A DNA stretch of 22,147 nucleotides from IMG/VR virus record IMGVR_UViG_3300036846_000882, positions 1 to 22,147 of that record, one strand, 5' to 3'. Position 1 is the stretch's first letter, and each line of letters opens with the position of its first letter. The notes below the pieces were generated by a model. That model searched no databases and was not told the origin of the DNA. It saw nothing but the letters and a program-made list of their open reading frames with translations. Positions 15,373 to 21,857 of the stretch are shown piece after piece. Both the position numbers and the translations under genes were made by a program. Origin of the DNA: a virus.

Positions 15373-16611
15373 TTGAAGTACAATCAGCCGCTCGACCAGC
15401 CGACCAACACGAACGCGCCGTACATCGACGGCAATCCGGCCGCCGGCATCCAGGGCTCGATCGTCCCGGCGGCGTCGATCGAGTACGATCAGCGCGAGAT
15501 CGTCGAGGTCATCAATGCGGCGAACCTGCGCCTTTACACGGATTTCACCGGGACGCCGTGCGCGGTGCCGAGCAACAGCGACCAGACCCAGCTTCGCAAG
15601 GCGATCGAGGGTTACATTCAGTCGTGGGTGATTGATCGCGTCGTCACGTTCAAGGTCCACGGGCCGGGCGCGGACTTCCCTGATCTGATCGCGGCGATGG
15701 ACTATCTGTCGAAGTTTCGGATCACCAACAACGGCTTCGTCACGTTAGCGGTCGCTGGCGCGACGTCGGGCGTGGCGACGCGCTGGACCTACAACAGGAT
15801 CATCACCTTCGAACACCCGAACCTCGATCGCATTTCCGTTCAGGGTGCGCCGATGATCGGCCCTCCGGTCCTCGGCACTGACTTCCAGTACACGGGTAAT
15901 CGAGGCCAGGACGCCGCCGCGCAGCTCACCATGCTGCGCGGCCGGTTCGCGACCGAGCTCTACTTCACGAGCGGTGCGTACATCAATATCAACGGCTCGA
16001 TCGGGTTCGGCGGGGCGCCGAACCCGGCCGGTTCCGGTATGGCAAATCTGCTGATCTCGTCGGATGGCTCGACTCAGAGCGGCGGTCTTCAGATCAACAA
16101 CGCATATACGGCGCTCGGCAACGTATCGGTCCAGAACACCTGGCTCGGGATCATCAGCAACAACTCCTACTTCTGGACGGAGTTGGACTTCGTCTCTTCC
16201 TGCGGCAACATCCTCTGGGGCTTCGAGTTTCAGGGCTGCATGGCGCTCGGCGCGACCCAGACGATCGCGTGCTCGAACCAGCACCAGGGTTGGGTGATCC
16301 AGGTCGGGTCTGCCATCAGGCAGGGCGGCAACTTCATCGTCTACGCGAGGGGAAACGCCGACTCCGGAATCACGTGTCTGGCGGGTGGCAGCGCGAGCGT
16401 AGTTGGCTCGCAATTCCTCAACAACGGGAACTGGGGCATTCTCAACTATCAAGGCCAGATCAGCTGCAACAACAGCAACTTCTCTGGCAACGTCGGCGGC
16501 CCGATGTACGCCACTGGCGGCGGCATTGTCGCGACTGGTTCGGCGGGCACGGCCGGCTGCGTCCCGGCGGCGAACACTCAGGGCAACGGCTTCGCTTTCA
16601 TCACTGTCTGA
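15373..16611 (+). CDS. Beta-helix tail fibre / tailspike protein
   Basis: A 412-residue protein that uses TTG at 15373. No ATG or GTG lies nearby in frame, and GAGGAGG at 15361-15367 (overlapping the previous stop) is ideally placed five bases upstream. Residues 1-50 (KYNQPLDQPTNTNAPYIDGNPAAGIQGSIVPAASIEYDQREIV) look like a fibre anchoring segment. From about 95 there is the 'phGPGADFPDLIAAMDYL' start of a pectate-lyase-like fold, then many short Gly/Asn/Ser-rich turns (GGLQINNAYTALGNVSV, GSQFLNNGNWGILNYQ, NNSNFSGNVGG) typical of a right-handed parallel beta-helix. No clear catalytic residues can be assigned, so it may bind or cleave surface polysaccharide. Confidence 0.78.
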   Translation: MKYNQPLDQPTNTNAPYIDGNPAAGIQGSIVPAASIEYDQREIVEVINAANLRLYTDFTGTPCAVPSNSDQTQLRKAIEGYIQSWVIDRVVTFKVHGPGADFPDLIAAMDYLSKFRITNNGFVTLAVAGATSGVATRWTYNRIITFEHPNLDRISVQGAPMIGPPVLGTDFQYTGNRGQDAAAQLTMLRGRFATELYFTSGAYININGSIGFGGAPNPAGSGMANLLISSDGSTQSGGLQINNAYTALGNVSVQNTWLGIISNNSYFWTELDFVSSCGNILWGFEFQGCMALGATQTIACSNQHQGWVIQVGSAIRQGGNFIVYARGNADSGITCLAGGSASVVGSQFLNNGNWGILNYQGQISCNNSNFSGNVGGPMYATGGGIVATGSAGTAGCVPAANTQGNGFAFITV

Positions 16612-17206: not shown

Positions 17207-17584
17207 ATGGCGGGGCCAGCCTACTACAGCGGTGTGATGAACATCTCGAAGAACGAGGACTGGATCGTCCCGTTTCTCTATCAGAGCACTGATCCGACCG
17301 GGACCATCTTCACTCCGATCGACCTGACCGGGTCGGAATTGAAGCTCGAAATCCGCGTCCAGGAGCTCGATCATGTGGCGCTGGTCTCGGTCTACTCGCC
17401 GGACCACGGCATATTCATCACCAACGCGACGCAGGGCCAGTTCACCGTCCTGATCGACCGCGAGCACCTGATCTACCTTGCGGCTGGCAGCTACTTCACC
17501 GATCTCGTGCGACTGATGCCGAACGGCTATCAGGAACGCATGTGGGAGGGTAACGCAGTCGTGGTTGAGGGGACGACGCGCTGA
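17207..17584 (+). CDS. Small beta-sandwich fibre-associated protein
   Basis: A 125-residue protein with ATG three bases after the DUF4376 gene. It follows a pattern common in baseplate/fibre adaptor proteins: an N-terminal [11 protein letters not shown] strand, then [48 protein letters not shown] and a closing [11 protein letters not shown]. This resembles the N-terminal beta-sandwich of BppU-like upper baseplate proteins. It is followed with a TGATG overlap by a collagen-like fibre, and such pairs recur in phage genomes. A role as fibre base or adaptor is inferred. Confidence 0.6.
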
Positions 17585-18573
17585 TGGCCGAGCCGCTATT
17601 CAATCTCGCCAGCGGAACGCCGCGCATCACGCTGGCGACCTATGCGCCAAGCAACACGGTGCTCACCGTGGCGCCAGAGGGGCCGATAGGACCTCCAGGC
17701 ACGCCAGGGAAAGATGGCATGCCCGGTTATCCCGGGCCCTCCGGTCCACCTGGCGCGCAAGGCGAGCAGGGGCTGACGGGACCAAAGGGCGATCCAGGAC
17801 CTCAGGGCGTTCCAGGACCGCCCGGAGGGCTCGGCGAGGCCCCGACCGACGGCGCGCTCTATGGCCGTGCGAATGCGACATGGACTCAGGTAAGCCCCGC
17901 GAGCGTCAACGCCGTCAGCAAAACCGGCGACACGATGTCGGGCGATCTCGCCGTCGCCGCTGACATCACCGCCTATCGGACCAACGCGCCGACCACGGGC
18001 GTCATCTATCTCAATCAGCCGAAGTCCGCCTACCTCTACTACGACGGCGCGAACTACCAGATGCCGAACGGCAACGTGAACGGCGTGCGCGGCCGTCTCA
18101 TGTACGTCAACGGCGACACCATGACCGCCGAGCTCGTGGTGTCGAATACGCCGTCAGGCAATCAGGTCCGCATGATCAGCGGGAACTACGGCGTCCTGCT
18201 TCGCAACGACGGCGGCAACTTCTACTTCTTGGTGACGAACGCTGGCGATCCGTCAGGAACTTGGAATAACCTGCGTCCCTTCTTGTTCAACTTGGCGAGT
18301 GGAAATGTCGCGTGCGGCGGCACGGTCAGCGCGGTCAACGGACGTCTCTGGGGCGCGAACGACTTCGCGAGTGTGCCGTCGCCGGGGGTCACCAACATGC
18401 GGCTCGCCTACGCGGGCGATCATAGATACCAGCTCGCCAACGGCAACATGGAGGAGCCTTATAGCGGATCAGTCATCACCGGCGCGAACAACCCAAGTTA
18501 CGGGTCCACTCTTCGCCATCGCTATCTCCAGTACTACATCAACGGCAACTGGTACACGGCGGGCTACGCGTGA
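17584..18573 (+). CDS. Collagen-like tail fibre protein
   Basis: A 329-residue protein whose ATG shares its A with the previous TGA. Residues 1-30 ([25 protein letters not shown]) form a short strand base. Residues about 33-86 are some 17 Gly-X-Y triplets. A fibre segment [14 protein letters not shown] follows at about 116-129, a motif repeated in other tail fibres. The remainder is beta-rich with Gly/Asn turns ([41 protein letters not shown]), ending in an aromatic tip [16 protein letters not shown]. This is the usual design of a trimeric collagen shaft with a receptor-binding head; the receptor is unknown. Confidence 0.82.
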
Positions 18574-18968
18574 TGAAGATCATCAATCACGGCTCGTGGT
18601 CGCGCTACACGCCGAGGACGGTCCCGCGGGACGTCCCGGCGGGCGTCATGTTCTGCCGACGCGACGGTGACGGCGTCGACTGGTACGACTACATCCACGG
18701 CGACGGGGCCAAGCTCGCCGGCGGCTCGGTCAAGATGACGGTCCTCGAGGGCACCGTGCGCGCGGTCAACCGTGACGCGACGGCGCTGTTCCCGCAGGGC
18801 TGCGTCGTGCTCGAGCTGATCGGCGACGTGTCGCCGAACCCGCAGGCCGCCTTCGGCGGCAAGTTCTATGACGCGAGGACGAACGCCCTCGTCGATCCGC
18901 CGCCGGCGCGGGTCGAGCCGTCGCTGACCGATCTGATCGCGCGCATCGAGGCGTTGGAGCGAAGATGA
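18573..18968 (+). CDS. Small unknown protein between fibre genes
   Basis: A 131-residue protein. ATG at 18573 shares its A with the upstream stop, like other gene junctions here; GTG at 18570 would add one residue. It is mixed alpha/beta with [21 protein letters not shown] and [23 protein letters not shown], and ends in a short charged helix ([14 protein letters not shown]). No family is recognised with confidence. Position between two fibre genes, with ATGA overlap to the next, suggests a fibre assembly chaperone or accessory subunit. A ligand-binding small fibre protein is equally possible. Confidence 0.55.
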
Positions 18969-20383
18969 GCGGCCCGACGATCTCTCTCACCGTCCCGCAG
19001 ACCGGCCCGGCCGGGCCGATAGGTCCGCCCGGACCGCCTGGCCCGCAGGGAACGCCCGGGCCGCCGGGCAGCTCCGGCGGGCAGGGCGAGCAGGGCGAGC
19101 CCGGTACGCAGGGTCCTGCCGGCCCGCAGGGTGACGCCGGGCCGCCGGGGCCGGCGGGGCCGCAGGGACCGCAGGGGACGCCGGGCACTGGCGGCGGCAG
19201 CAGCGTCTATGTGTCGGACACGGCGCCGACCGGGGTGCCCGACAACTCGCTCTGGTGGGAGAGCGACTCGGGCCTCCTTTACGTCCGCTACAACGACGGC
19301 GACAGCAGTCAGTGGGTCGTCGCGGTGCCGACGCCGACGCTCGGCGCCTTCCTGCTGAAGTCCGGCGACACGATGACCGGGCCGCTCGCGCTCGCGGCCG
19401 ACCCGACGACGGCGCTTCAGGCGGCGACCAAGCAGTACGTCGATCACACCCCTGCGCTCAACAACGTCGGGCGCAATCTGCTGCACAACCCGCTCTTCAA
19501 CGTCGCGCAGCGCGGGGCGGGAGCGTGGACGACCAACGCTGCATATACTGCTGATCGCTGGCAGGCGTATCTCAATCTTGATACCGTGAACGTCACGCTC
19601 GGGCCGTTCAACGATACCCAGCGCGCCGCCATCGGCGACGAGGCGGCAACCACCGCGCTGATCTACGCCGTCGCAGGAAATGCCGGGGCGGCGTCGTACT
19701 CGTTTATCTCACAGAAGATCGAGGGCCTTCGTCGTCTGTCCGGGAAGACAGTGACGGTGAGCCTCTGGGCTTATGCGACTGCCGGCACTCCGAAGATCGG
19801 CATTGGATTTCAGCAGCTGCCCGGAACTGGCGGCTCGCCATCGGGCGGAAGTGCGGTCAACGCGACGCCGATCACGCTGACTACGACGCCGACGCGATAT
19901 AGCGCGACGTTCACGCTGCCGAGCGCCGCCGGCCTGACGCTCGGCACGAACGGTGACGACGCGACCTGGTTAAAGATATTCTTCAGCAGCGGAGCAACGG
20001 CCAATGCAAGTGCCGGCGGCATCGGTGTTCAGAACAACACATTTGTGCTCTGGGGCGTCCAGCTCGAGGTCGGCTCGGTCGCGACGCCGCTCGAGAAGCC
20101 CGACCCGCAGCAGGACTTGGCGAAGTGCCAGCGGTTCTATTGCACCGGGGGTTTTTATGTCGGCGGCTATGGCACCGCCGGGATGGCCGTACAGACCACG
20201 GTGAGCCTTCCCGTCACGATGCGCGGGGCGATGACTATGACACCAAGTTTCTCTATCCAAACGAATTGCGGATCGAGCAGCATGACGGCGCTGTCGCAGA
20301 AGGATTGGTATGCCCAGACGACAGTGACTGCGACAGGTGGCTATGCTCTAGCCGCCAACTACACAGTATCGGCGGACCTCTGA
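18965..20383 (+). CDS. Collagen-like tail fibre with receptor-binding C-terminal domain (paralogue 1)
   Basis: A 472-residue protein starting in an ATGA overlap. Residues about 14-78 are about 21 Gly-X-Y triplets. Then follow [25 protein letters not shown] (a short fibre domain seen in many phage fibres), the repeat [30 protein letters not shown], and the head domain beginning [22 protein letters not shown] ... YTADRWQ. The C-terminal half is jelly-roll-like beta sequence, with a segment [22 protein letters not shown] typical of carbohydrate-binding fibre tips, and ends VSADL. It is paralogous to the next gene from the VDxxPALxNVGRNL motif onward, including one nearly identical 91-base stretch. 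It probably determines host range. Confidence 0.82.
20050..20140 (+). repeat. Direct repeat copy 1 (fibre tip segment)
   Basis: These 91 bases match 21207-21297 at 88 of 91 positions by eye, including the coding stretch for [20 protein letters not shown]. The match is at nucleotide level, far above the surrounding similarity of the two paralogous fibre genes. This indicates recent duplication, conversion or a recombination anchor. Confidence 0.9.
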
Positions 20384-20450
20384 TGGGCATCAACTTCCCG
20401 AACGCACCAACAACAAATCAGCTGTACCCGCAGCCGCCGGTCGCCGGGCT
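20383..20450 (+). repeat. Direct repeat copy A (5' end of fibre gene)
   Basis: The first 68 bases of the second fibre gene recur at 21578-21645 with 4 mismatches by eye. Both copies start at ATG and encode [20 protein letters not shown]. The similarity stops abruptly after GGGCT, which marks a recombination junction in copy B. Confidence 0.9.
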
Positions 20451-21537
20451 GCCGGTGTATCAGTGGGACGGCGAGAAGTGGACGACGCAGGGCGCGAGCG
20501 CGACCAAGACGCCGATCTATACGGACGGCTCGACGGCGATGGTGGCGCAGCTGACGCTGGTTGGCGATCCCGTTAACCCCACCGACGCGGCGGACAAGCA
20601 CTACGTCGACAGCGCCCCAGCCCTTCATAATGTCGGGCGCAATCTCATCCACAACTCGCTGTTCAACATCCAGCAGCGCGGGGTGGGGCCGTGGGGCACG
20701 GGCTACACGGCGGATCGCTGGCAACTGTTTACGAGTACAAGTGCATGCAACGTTTACGTGATAGCCGCTACTGACGGCGATCGTGGGAACATAGGCGATG
20801 AAGCAGCAGCTTCTATATTGGAGCCGCAGTTTAGCGGGACAGGTGGTGCCGGCGATTATGTGATCATCGGACAAGCCATCGAAAATGTGAGGCGCTTGGC
20901 CAACAAAACGGTCACCCTGTCTTTCTGGGCGAACGCCAGTGCTGCGCTCAAGTTCGGTGTTTCATTCGACCAAATTTTCGGTACTGGCGGATCGCCGTCT
21001 CCTGCGGTTCAAGGCAATGGCAGTTCAGTAACTCTGTCTGGTTCATGGTCACGTTACTCATTGACGTTTGCAATCCCCAGCATAGCCGGCAAGGTGCTGG
21101 GAACCAACAATGACACTAGAACCCAAATGTATCTGTGGCTCTCGACTGGATCGAGTAACAGCGTTCGATCAGGTGGAGTTGGCGTACAATCCGGCACCGT
21201 CAACATCTGGGGCGTCCAGCTCGAGGTCGGCTCGGTCGCGACGCCGCTCGAGAAGCCCGACCCGCAGCAGGACCTCGCCAAGTGCCAGCGGTTCTATCAG
21301 ACTGGATACTATCAACTATATGCCTATGGAACGGCAGGATCGGTGGTGATGTATAACCGGACGTTTGTAGTAGCCCTTCGCACCAACAATCCTGTCATCA
21401 CTTCCAACAACACCACTCTTGCGAATGGCACCGCCAGCATCGGCGTTTACGGAGATGGGCTCCAGGTAGGTGTGACCGTAACCGCGGCTGGGATGATGCA
21501 GCTTGCCGGCATCTTCACCGCATCGGCGGACTTTTGA
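20383..21537 (+). CDS. Tail fibre receptor-binding protein (paralogue 2)
   Basis: A 384-residue protein whose ATG shares its A with the upstream TGA; the frame is open further upstream but that is a shadow. It lacks the collagen shaft and starts GINFPNAPTTNQLYPQPPVAGLPVYQWDGEKW, a common short fibre start. Then LTLVGDPVNPTDAADKHYVDSAP and NVGRNLIHNSLFNIQQRGVGPW repeat the domain order of the preceding gene. The middle part (residues about 110-275) is more AT-rich than its neighbours, while flanks shared with paralogue 1 are GC-rich, which suggests an exchanged tip domain. It ends FTASADF, like VSADL in paralogue 1. Confidence 0.8.
   Translation: MGINFPNAPTTNQLYPQPPVAGLPVYQWDGEKWTTQGASATKTPIYTDGSTAMVAQLTLVGDPVNPTDAADKHYVDSAPALHNVGRNLIHNSLFNIQQRGVGPWGTGYTADRWQLFTSTSACNVYVIAATDGDRGNIGDEAAASILEPQFSGTGGAGDYVIIGQAIENVRRLANKTVTLSFWANASAALKFGVSFDQIFGTGGSPSPAVQGNGSSVTLSGSWSRYSLTFAIPSIAGKVLGTNNDTRTQMYLWLSTGSSNSVRSGGVGVQSGTVNIWGVQLEVGSVATPLEKPDPQQDLAKCQRFYQTGYYQLYAYGTAGSVVMYNRTFVVALRTNNPVITSNNTTLANGTASIGVYGDGLQVGVTVTAAGMMQLAGIFTASADF
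21207..21297 (+). repeat. Direct repeat copy 2 (fibre tip segment)
   Basis: Partner of 20050-20140, with three substitutions clustered in the part coding for the DLAKCQRFY stretch. Two of the three are in third codon positions and none changes the encoded protein, indicating purifying selection on this tip segment as well as recent common origin. Confidence 0.88.
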
Positions 21538-21577
21538 CGTGGCTGTGTGAGTCAAACACAAATTCAGGAACGTAACC

Positions 21578-21645
21578 ATGGGCATCAACTTCCCGAACGC
21601 ACCCACAACAAATCAGCTCTACCCGCAGCCGCCGGTATCCGGGCT
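21578..21645 (+). repeat. Direct repeat copy B (5' end of fibre gene)
   Basis: Partner of 20383-20450. The four mismatches include one silent change at the Pro codon, one silent change at Leu, and two in the Val-Ala/Val-Ser codons. Its 3' edge at GGGCT is where homology ends. Confidence 0.88.
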
Positions 21646-21664
21646 TGCCCTGCCGGTTCTGTGA
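21578..21664 (+). pseudogene. Truncated third copy of the fibre gene 5' end
   Basis: ATG at 21578, with AGGA at 21566-21569 upstream, opens 28 codons: [20 protein letters not shown] then SGLALPVL and TGA at 21662-21664. The first 22 codons copy the start of the fibre gene at 20383. Beyond 21645 the sequence departs from the fibre gene and soon stops. It is a remnant of a third tandem fibre gene whose body has been lost or replaced, or a fibre-gene start ready to receive a new 3' cassette. A 28-residue product is unlikely to be a working fibre. Confidence 0.75.
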
Positions 21665-21788
21665 AAAGGCGCGCCAGCTTGCCGCTGCGGCGGTGCGCCG
21701 GCCGCGCATCGCCGCGATCCGCAAGACTTCCAGCGTTGCGCGGCAGCTCAAGCGCGTGCTAAAGATTGATCGGCGCGGCGGCCGCTAG
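21645..21788 (+). CDS. Possible small Cys-pair basic protein or gene fragment
   Basis: Directly after the repeat junction a frame runs from TTG at 21645 to TAG at 21786-21788 and encodes 47 residues: PCRFCEKARQ, then a basic helix-like stretch (AAIRKTSSVARQLKRVLK). The CxxC at the start and the even, protein-like composition suggest a real small protein or the 3' end of a gene displaced into the fibre array. There is no ATG and no good ribosome binding site. The frame is also open upstream across the repeat, but that part is shadow sequence. Function is unknown; a fragment is more likely than an intact gene. Confidence 0.35.
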   Translation: MPCRFCEKARQLAAAAVRRPRIAAIRKTSSVARQLKRVLKIDRRGGR

Positions 21789-21828: not shown

Positions 21829-21857
21829 AGGCCGGCTTCATCGCCGGCCTTTTTTTT
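21829..21857 (+). terminator. Rho-independent terminator at the end of the late operon
   Basis: AGGCCGGC (21829-21836) pairs perfectly with GCCGGCCT (21843-21850) around the six-base loop TTCATC, and the stem is followed by an eight-T run (21850-21857). It is oriented to stop + strand transcription from the structural operon before it enters the facing gene. There is no T run on the other strand, so it is not obviously bidirectional. Confidence 0.93.

Follow-up and report, generated by a model that had tools for sequence, protein, structure and literature searches.

The locus described here raises the question of why two neighbouring tail fibre genes of one phage should share short stretches of well-conserved DNA on either side of segments that differ, and whether receptor-facing segments may be exchanged at these stretches. 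The window that was analysed comprises all 22147 bases of a linear virus record in IMG/VR, and the phage is from soil. Matches to Pfam and PHROGs identify the genes of the window as a Mu-like contractile phage tail module that contains the sheath, the tube, a tape-measure-like protein with a lysozyme domain, a DNA-circularisation N-terminal domain, the hub, Mu Gp45, GP46, and baseplate J. The sheath, tube, Mu Gp45-, GP46-, and baseplate J-type genes are found in order, upstream of the fibres. The module is headed by a 423-residue collagen-like protein (window:143-1414; Pfam Collagen 1.8e-31) that is distant from the fibre cluster, and the DNA for its GXX repeats is weakly similar to the GXX DNA of fibre 1. 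The fibre-like genes on the 3' side of the tail module begin with 15373-16611 and continue as follows.

17584-18573, collagen-like fibre with a Gp34-type trimerisation domain
18570-18968, tail-fibre-assembly-like gene, for which a search found no relatives
18965-20383, + strand, fibre gene 1, 472 aa: collagen-like stalk, CBM-like body, connector, tip (Pfam, PHROGs)
20141-20380, + strand, tip of fibre 1, 80 aa
20383-21537, + strand, fibre gene 2, 384 aa: short N-terminus, CBM-like body, connector, tip (PHROGs, AlphaFold, Foldseek)
21298-21534, + strand, tip of fibre 2, 79 aa

The last two genes form the tandem array, in which the ATG of fibre gene 2 overlaps the stop codon of fibre gene 1. An initial annotation, made from the sequence, had described them as adjacent paralogues, and this was found to be correct. 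The genes at 18965-20383 and 20383-21537 share the conserved blocks presented below, and the C-terminal part of each belongs to phrog_4492 (tail fibre), with E-values of 1e-45 for fibre 1 and 5.9e-51 for fibre 2. The Pfam matches to fibre 1 are Collagen (1.4e-7) and CBM_4_9 (3.4e-4, below the cut-off). An AlphaFold model of fibre 2 divides the protein into a body with a beta-sandwich fold, a linker at residues 284-302 that is modelled with low confidence and includes a short helix, and a C-terminal beta domain that stands apart from the body; with a mean pLDDT of 71 and a pTM of 0.49, the model was used for domain limits only. The predicted body resembles the fold of CBM4/CBM16 (Foldseek E about 1e-6), but the CBM_4_9 scores of 21.4 and 16.9 bits are below the Pfam gathering score of 25.9, and the fibre bodies are thus described as CBM-like only and are not assigned to CBM_4_9. 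No close relatives were found when either the fibre 1 tip or the fibre 2 tip was searched alone. The position of the tips, together with the carbohydrate-binding fold of the body, suggests that the tips decide the receptor.

The blocks that are shared within the window, which are 68-143 bases in length and 75-97% identical, and the conserved gene ends are located as follows.

19421-19563, + strand, body-entry block, copy 1 (also the 5' cassette edge in relatives L009/L010 and L011/L012)
20587-20723, + strand, body-entry block, copy 2
20049-20140, + strand, connector block, copy 1, the exchange point on the 5' side of the tip (identity to relative L005 stops at 20140)
21206-21297, + strand, connector block, copy 2
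20348-20383, + strand, conserved gene end, copy 1 (..SADL stop)
21502-21537, + strand, conserved gene end, copy 2 (..SADF stop)
20383-20450, + strand, N-terminal block, copy 1, the start of fibre gene 2
21578-21645, + strand, N-terminal block, copy 2, in the stump described below

The two copies of the connector are identical at 89 of 92 nucleotides (97%), with three differences and a longest exact run of 68. This near-identical repeat had been noticed before at the same place, as a segment of 91 bases, and was then taken for the fibre tip. The latter assignment must be revised, since in both genes the block is followed by another 79-80 residues, which constitute the variable C-terminal domain. 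The 92-base block is therefore a connector, and its position between the CBM-like body and the tip of about 80 residues agrees with the structural model of fibre 2. Since the two copies do not differ in codon phase, an exchange between them preserves the reading frame. The N-terminal blocks are identical at 64 of 68 nucleotides (94%), as the initial annotation had also recognised when it reported that the start of fibre gene 2 is repeated at a remnant of 28 codons. These two pairs were correctly located, but the list was incomplete: the body-entry blocks (75% identical), which encode VGRNL.HN.LFN..QRG at the start of the body, and the gene ends (78% identical) had been missed. The SADL sequence is the terminus of 47 of the 55 full-length tips in the survey described next.

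The window was compared with 58 loci that contain relatives of fibre 2, 69 with relatives of the baseplate, and 63 with relatives of fibre 1. The relatives and the window together yielded 58 distinct full fibre domains. Three of these domains are found in tandem on seven contigs (L005, L006, L009, L011, L012, L026, and L038) and two on another seven, the window included; L003 and L004 have a more diverged fibre gene upstream of the others as well. A search with the exact DNA pattern of the connector found nothing.

Conserved blocks of this type could simply be the remains of old gene duplications, with conservation at the level of the protein because connector residues matter for the folding of the fibre, and with no present exchange in the lineage. 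The connector protein is indeed conserved across all 58 fibres (77% mean identity), and the DNA identity of connectors within a phage (0.751) is on average no higher than between phages (0.742). The silent codons argue against this explanation. In the connectors of the two window genes, 27 of the 29 shared amino acids have the identical codon, compared with 20 of 74 in the body (Fisher p = 7e-10), and the pair ranks second among 1200 comparable fibre-connector pairs, of which the first is a cassette that is plainly one copy. Between phages, silent codons are identical in excess in the conserved columns of the entry block (p = 8e-4) and of the connector (p = 1e-4) relative to conserved body columns; this test was corrected for codon usage and was conducted on 57 fibre genes, with the two of the window included and the duplicate cassette excluded. 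Together with the block-bounded swaps in relatives described below, these results make old duplication alone unlikely. The silent codons of connectors are identical at 0.65 within phages and 0.60 between phages (p = 0.03). Since connectors within one phage are on average hardly more alike than those of different phages, a constant homogenisation of connectors within each array is not the rule, and any general effect of this kind is at most weak.

The initial annotation had suggested that close relatives be compared for different fibre bodies between the same repeats, and differences in bodies, tips, or flanks that are bounded by the blocks were found (window/L005, L011/L012, and L009/L010). 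Dissimilar receptor-facing segments between equal conserved blocks are seen in these three sets and also in the L159 family. Fibre 1 of L005 has a body that is 87% identical in DNA to that of the window (84.9% over 19145-20140), and the similarity ends at the end of the connector. The two tips share 25% of their residues and 37% of their bases, and similarity is back at the start of the next gene. The connector of L005 resembles the connector of window gene 2 (95.9% over 97 bases) more than it resembles that of its ortholog. L011 and L012 have backbones that are 93.5% identical and three fibres each. Their first fibres are alike up to the body-entry block and then unlike, the second fibres are 79% alike to the end of the connector and then unlike, and the third are alike up to the entry block and unlike thereafter. 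L009 and L010 have in common a body-plus-tip cassette of 936 bases that is 99.3% identical, with one base that differs inside the body and tip. This cassette extends from the body-entry block to a few bases past the stop codon, and its flanks are unrelated. The backbones of L068 and the window are about 84% identical in two long blocks and about 80% identical farther along, and most of the intervening fibre region has been replaced.

The fibres of the L159 family are more distantly related and have an equal layout; a profile comparison shows them to be homologous (98.6% probability, 241 columns). The family is represented by eight contigs from eight samples, in which the body of the first fibre is 98-100% alike. 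Four of the contigs have tip 1 and four have tip 2. Over the 1400 bases before the connector, L162 (tip 1) has no difference at printed precision from L161, L163, and L166 (tip 2). In L159 and L164, tip 2 is carried by the second fibre gene, and the tip of the first fibre of L161 is identical to that of the second fibre of L159 at 122 of 122 comparable bases. The first fibre of L161 is thus a chimaera for which both parent sequences are at hand, and the switch between the parents falls inside the connector. The second position of the array has three body-plus-tip combinations behind a much alike N-terminus. A crossover that joins the connectors of two neighbouring genes would be expected to give this arrangement. 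An exchange between phages is equally possible, since the contigs of L162 and L159 end early and the second gene of L162 lies beyond the end of its contig.

Two other explanations for the changed tips were considered with these data. The tips might change by fast point mutation or by targeted hypermutation instead of exchange, and in fact no two of the 55 full tips are more than 59% identical in amino acids, apart from one shared cassette. We give this almost no credence: identity falls to background at one point next to the 1400 bases noted above, the replacing tip is found in identical form in another fibre gene, and no reverse transcriptase (RVT_1) was found in 14 relatives or among the scanned window genes. 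Alternatively, the chimaeras might be false, having been created when metagenome contigs were misjoined at common blocks. All of the sequences are metagenome contigs, the window connectors have an exact run of 68 bases in common, and the contigs of L159 and L164 end inside the shared tip. An artefact is nevertheless very improbable. The chimaeric fibre is found with the same junction in four records from four samples and includes one base that comes from neither parent, and L009 and L010 have no long exact run in common outside their cassette. The ends at L159:10237 and L164:5581, from different samples, are within a few bases of each other, as expected if both arrangements of the array coexist in the samples and split the assembly. 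When such arrays are assembled, the order of fibres along a contig can be ambiguous and should be read with caution.

The sequence that follows fibre gene 2 bears on the loss of whole genes. The features of this region are as follows.

21578-21664, + strand, 28 codons and then a stop, the putative stump of a third fibre gene
21645-21788, + strand, small gene (CRFCEKARQLA..) directly behind the scar, for which only a TTG start remains
21830-21857, + strand, hairpin and T-run, terminator-like, kept in L068 and L075

The first 23 codons of the stump match fibre 2 except for one residue. Five of the 23 codons are changed, one of them non-synonymously, and an AGGAA-like site is located on the 5' side at 21569-21573. 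From 21646 onward, the window matches L068 and L075. In these relatives the small gene begins with ATGGCCTGCCG(G/A)TTCTGC, directly 3' of the preceding gene, with its ATG overlapping the TGA stop. More generally, the ATG of the small gene is just behind or overlaps the preceding gene in relatives, and the small gene follows the last fibre. In the window, the N-terminal block is joined directly to TGCCCTGCCGGTTCTGT, which leaves TTG as the only possible start of the small gene. The deletion edge is 21645/21646. Since the edge of the stump meets the start codon of the gene that follows the last fibre in relatives, the stump is best read as a third fibre gene of which the remainder was deleted up to the start of the next gene. 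A functional short gene was also considered and is judged less likely than a deletion scar. The stump may have been retained for a function, such as a landing pad at which a new fibre gene could be gained, or translational coupling to the small gene, which would be compatible with the modular array proposed below. The complete N-terminal block and the AGGAA-like site have been kept, and few codons are changed relative to fibre 2, but a recent loss also accounts for this intactness, and no second stump was found among the relatives. The probability of a retained function is low. The small gene and the hairpin with its T-run (window:21646-21857; CRFCEK.RQLA) are kept among relatives with wholly different fibres and mark the right edge of the variable region.

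The explanation that we consider probable is that the window holds a modular tail fibre array, in which homologous recombination at the blocks swaps tips or cassettes and gains or loses whole genes. Each gene combines an N-terminal anchor that can be exchanged with a CBM-like body and a tip of about 80 residues, and the short conserved blocks that part these units are the body-entry block, the connector, the gene end, and the N-terminal block with which the next gene starts. Recombination at these blocks, within the array or with other phages, would swap tips or body-plus-tip cassettes, whereas unequal exchange or deletion in the array would lead to the gain or loss of whole fibre genes. In this reading, the window shows an array of two genes together with the scar left by deletion of a third, and the expected effect of an exchange would be a change in the surface sugar that is recognised. 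The idea that fibre bodies are exchanged or lost at the repeats had already been put forward in the initial annotation. It holds insofar as relatives have different bodies and tips between equal blocks, but the unit of exchange is often the C-terminal tip alone. Exchange and loss at the repeats are supported by the relatives and would by extension apply to the window phage itself.

A further proposal, which we offer tentatively as the less likely part of this reading, is that the array acts as an on-board reservoir of tips. The two or three paralogues, with connectors conserved at the level of DNA, would keep tips in store. Recombination inside a single genome or among sister phages would bring stored tips to the position that counts, and selection would act on the connector DNA itself to keep it recombinable.

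The recombinase is probably of the phage annealing type. The records of L064, L075, and L067, which are close to the window in backbone, encode RecT, as does one further relative, and four others encode Erf. Phage Rad52-like recombinases act efficiently on diverged DNA, including a substrate that is 78% identical (PMC3945230). By this comparison, the length and identity of the window blocks fall in the range that is usable by RecT/Erf-type recombinases. The earlier statement that neither an invertase nor a diversity-generating retroelement is visible holds for the annotated window genes and for 14 relatives. Resolvase-type serine recombinases were not found in these relatives, nor was an invertase among the annotated window genes. 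The fibre repeats are direct, which differs from invertase switching as in the Mu G segment and the P1 C segment, and the inverted repeats in the window are at most 30 nt and 70-83% complementary. A diversity-generating retroelement, with its reverse transcriptase and template/variable repeats, was likewise not found in these records, which are fragments and could therefore miss a distant gene.

The swapping of fibres by recombination is already known. In the T-even phages, it is established that adhesin segments between conserved motifs are swapped by recombination (references in PMC7468147 and PMC2248197), and domain duplications in the T4 adhesin were described by Tetart 1996 (cited in PMC2248197). 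According to the same two papers, gain and loss of domains alters the host range of T4 and of Xanthomonas phage OP1. As far as these accounts go, the T-even adhesins resemble the window fibres in having variable receptor-facing segments between conserved motifs, swaps by recombination, and duplications of fibre segments. The window array differs in that it is made of two to three complete tandem fibre paralogues, so that a spare tip can sit in the phage's own genome. The window fibres are CBM-like (phrog_4492) in a Mu-like tail and are likened to gp37 by arrangement.

Mu-like phages in cryoconite metagenomes have interchangeable variants of receptor-binding genes (PMC7468147). As here, near-identical cores are combined with dissimilar host-recognition genes, and several variants are found at one place. 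The cryoconite variants were described at the level of the gene (PMC7468147), whereas the present comparison places the edges at blocks within the fibre gene and finds one tip at two different positions of the array. In the tail fibres of the Xanthomonas phages OP1, Xp10, and Xop411, the host range is changed by duplication or deletion of small domains (PMC2248197). These fibres also have repeats in and around their domains, with gain and loss, and fibre 2 matches the OP1h fibre in structure (BFVD Q2PGC3, E 1.2e-18). In those phages the variation affects small domains close to the N-terminus of a single gene (PMC2248197), whereas here the tips, the bodies, and whole genes vary. Domain mosaicism has also been described for phage receptor-binding proteins in general, including recent shuffling of fibre domains between phages (PMC10684548); the portions of this broad survey drawn on here describe no particular crossover block or array.

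The present analysis adds the tandem array as a setting, the mapping of the exchange units to short blocks, and a chimaera for which both parents are known. The general statement that fibres are mosaic is thereby replaced with mapped exchange points and defined units (tip, body plus tip, and whole gene), and in one relative the chimaera and both of its parents are known to the base level. The rate at which recognition tips change in wild phages becomes measurable from read pairs that span three short conserved blocks.

The likely host of the window phage, by inference from its tail, is rhizobial, since the nearest named relative by sheath protein (68%) is a tail cluster in Bradyrhizobium jicamae. 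Fibre 2 has no match in the Bradyrhizobium genome that carries this related tail (L129), which is thus a tail cluster without a detectable copy of the window fibre type. In this Bradyrhizobium jicamae contig, the sheath and tube genes are separated by about 8 kb (L129:11577-18688) that holds reverse-strand genes. By eye, these genes look like a heavy-metal efflux set composed of a cation-diffusion facilitator, an RND pump, an adaptor, and an outer-membrane channel, and the tail cluster with this insert is probably a broken prophage.
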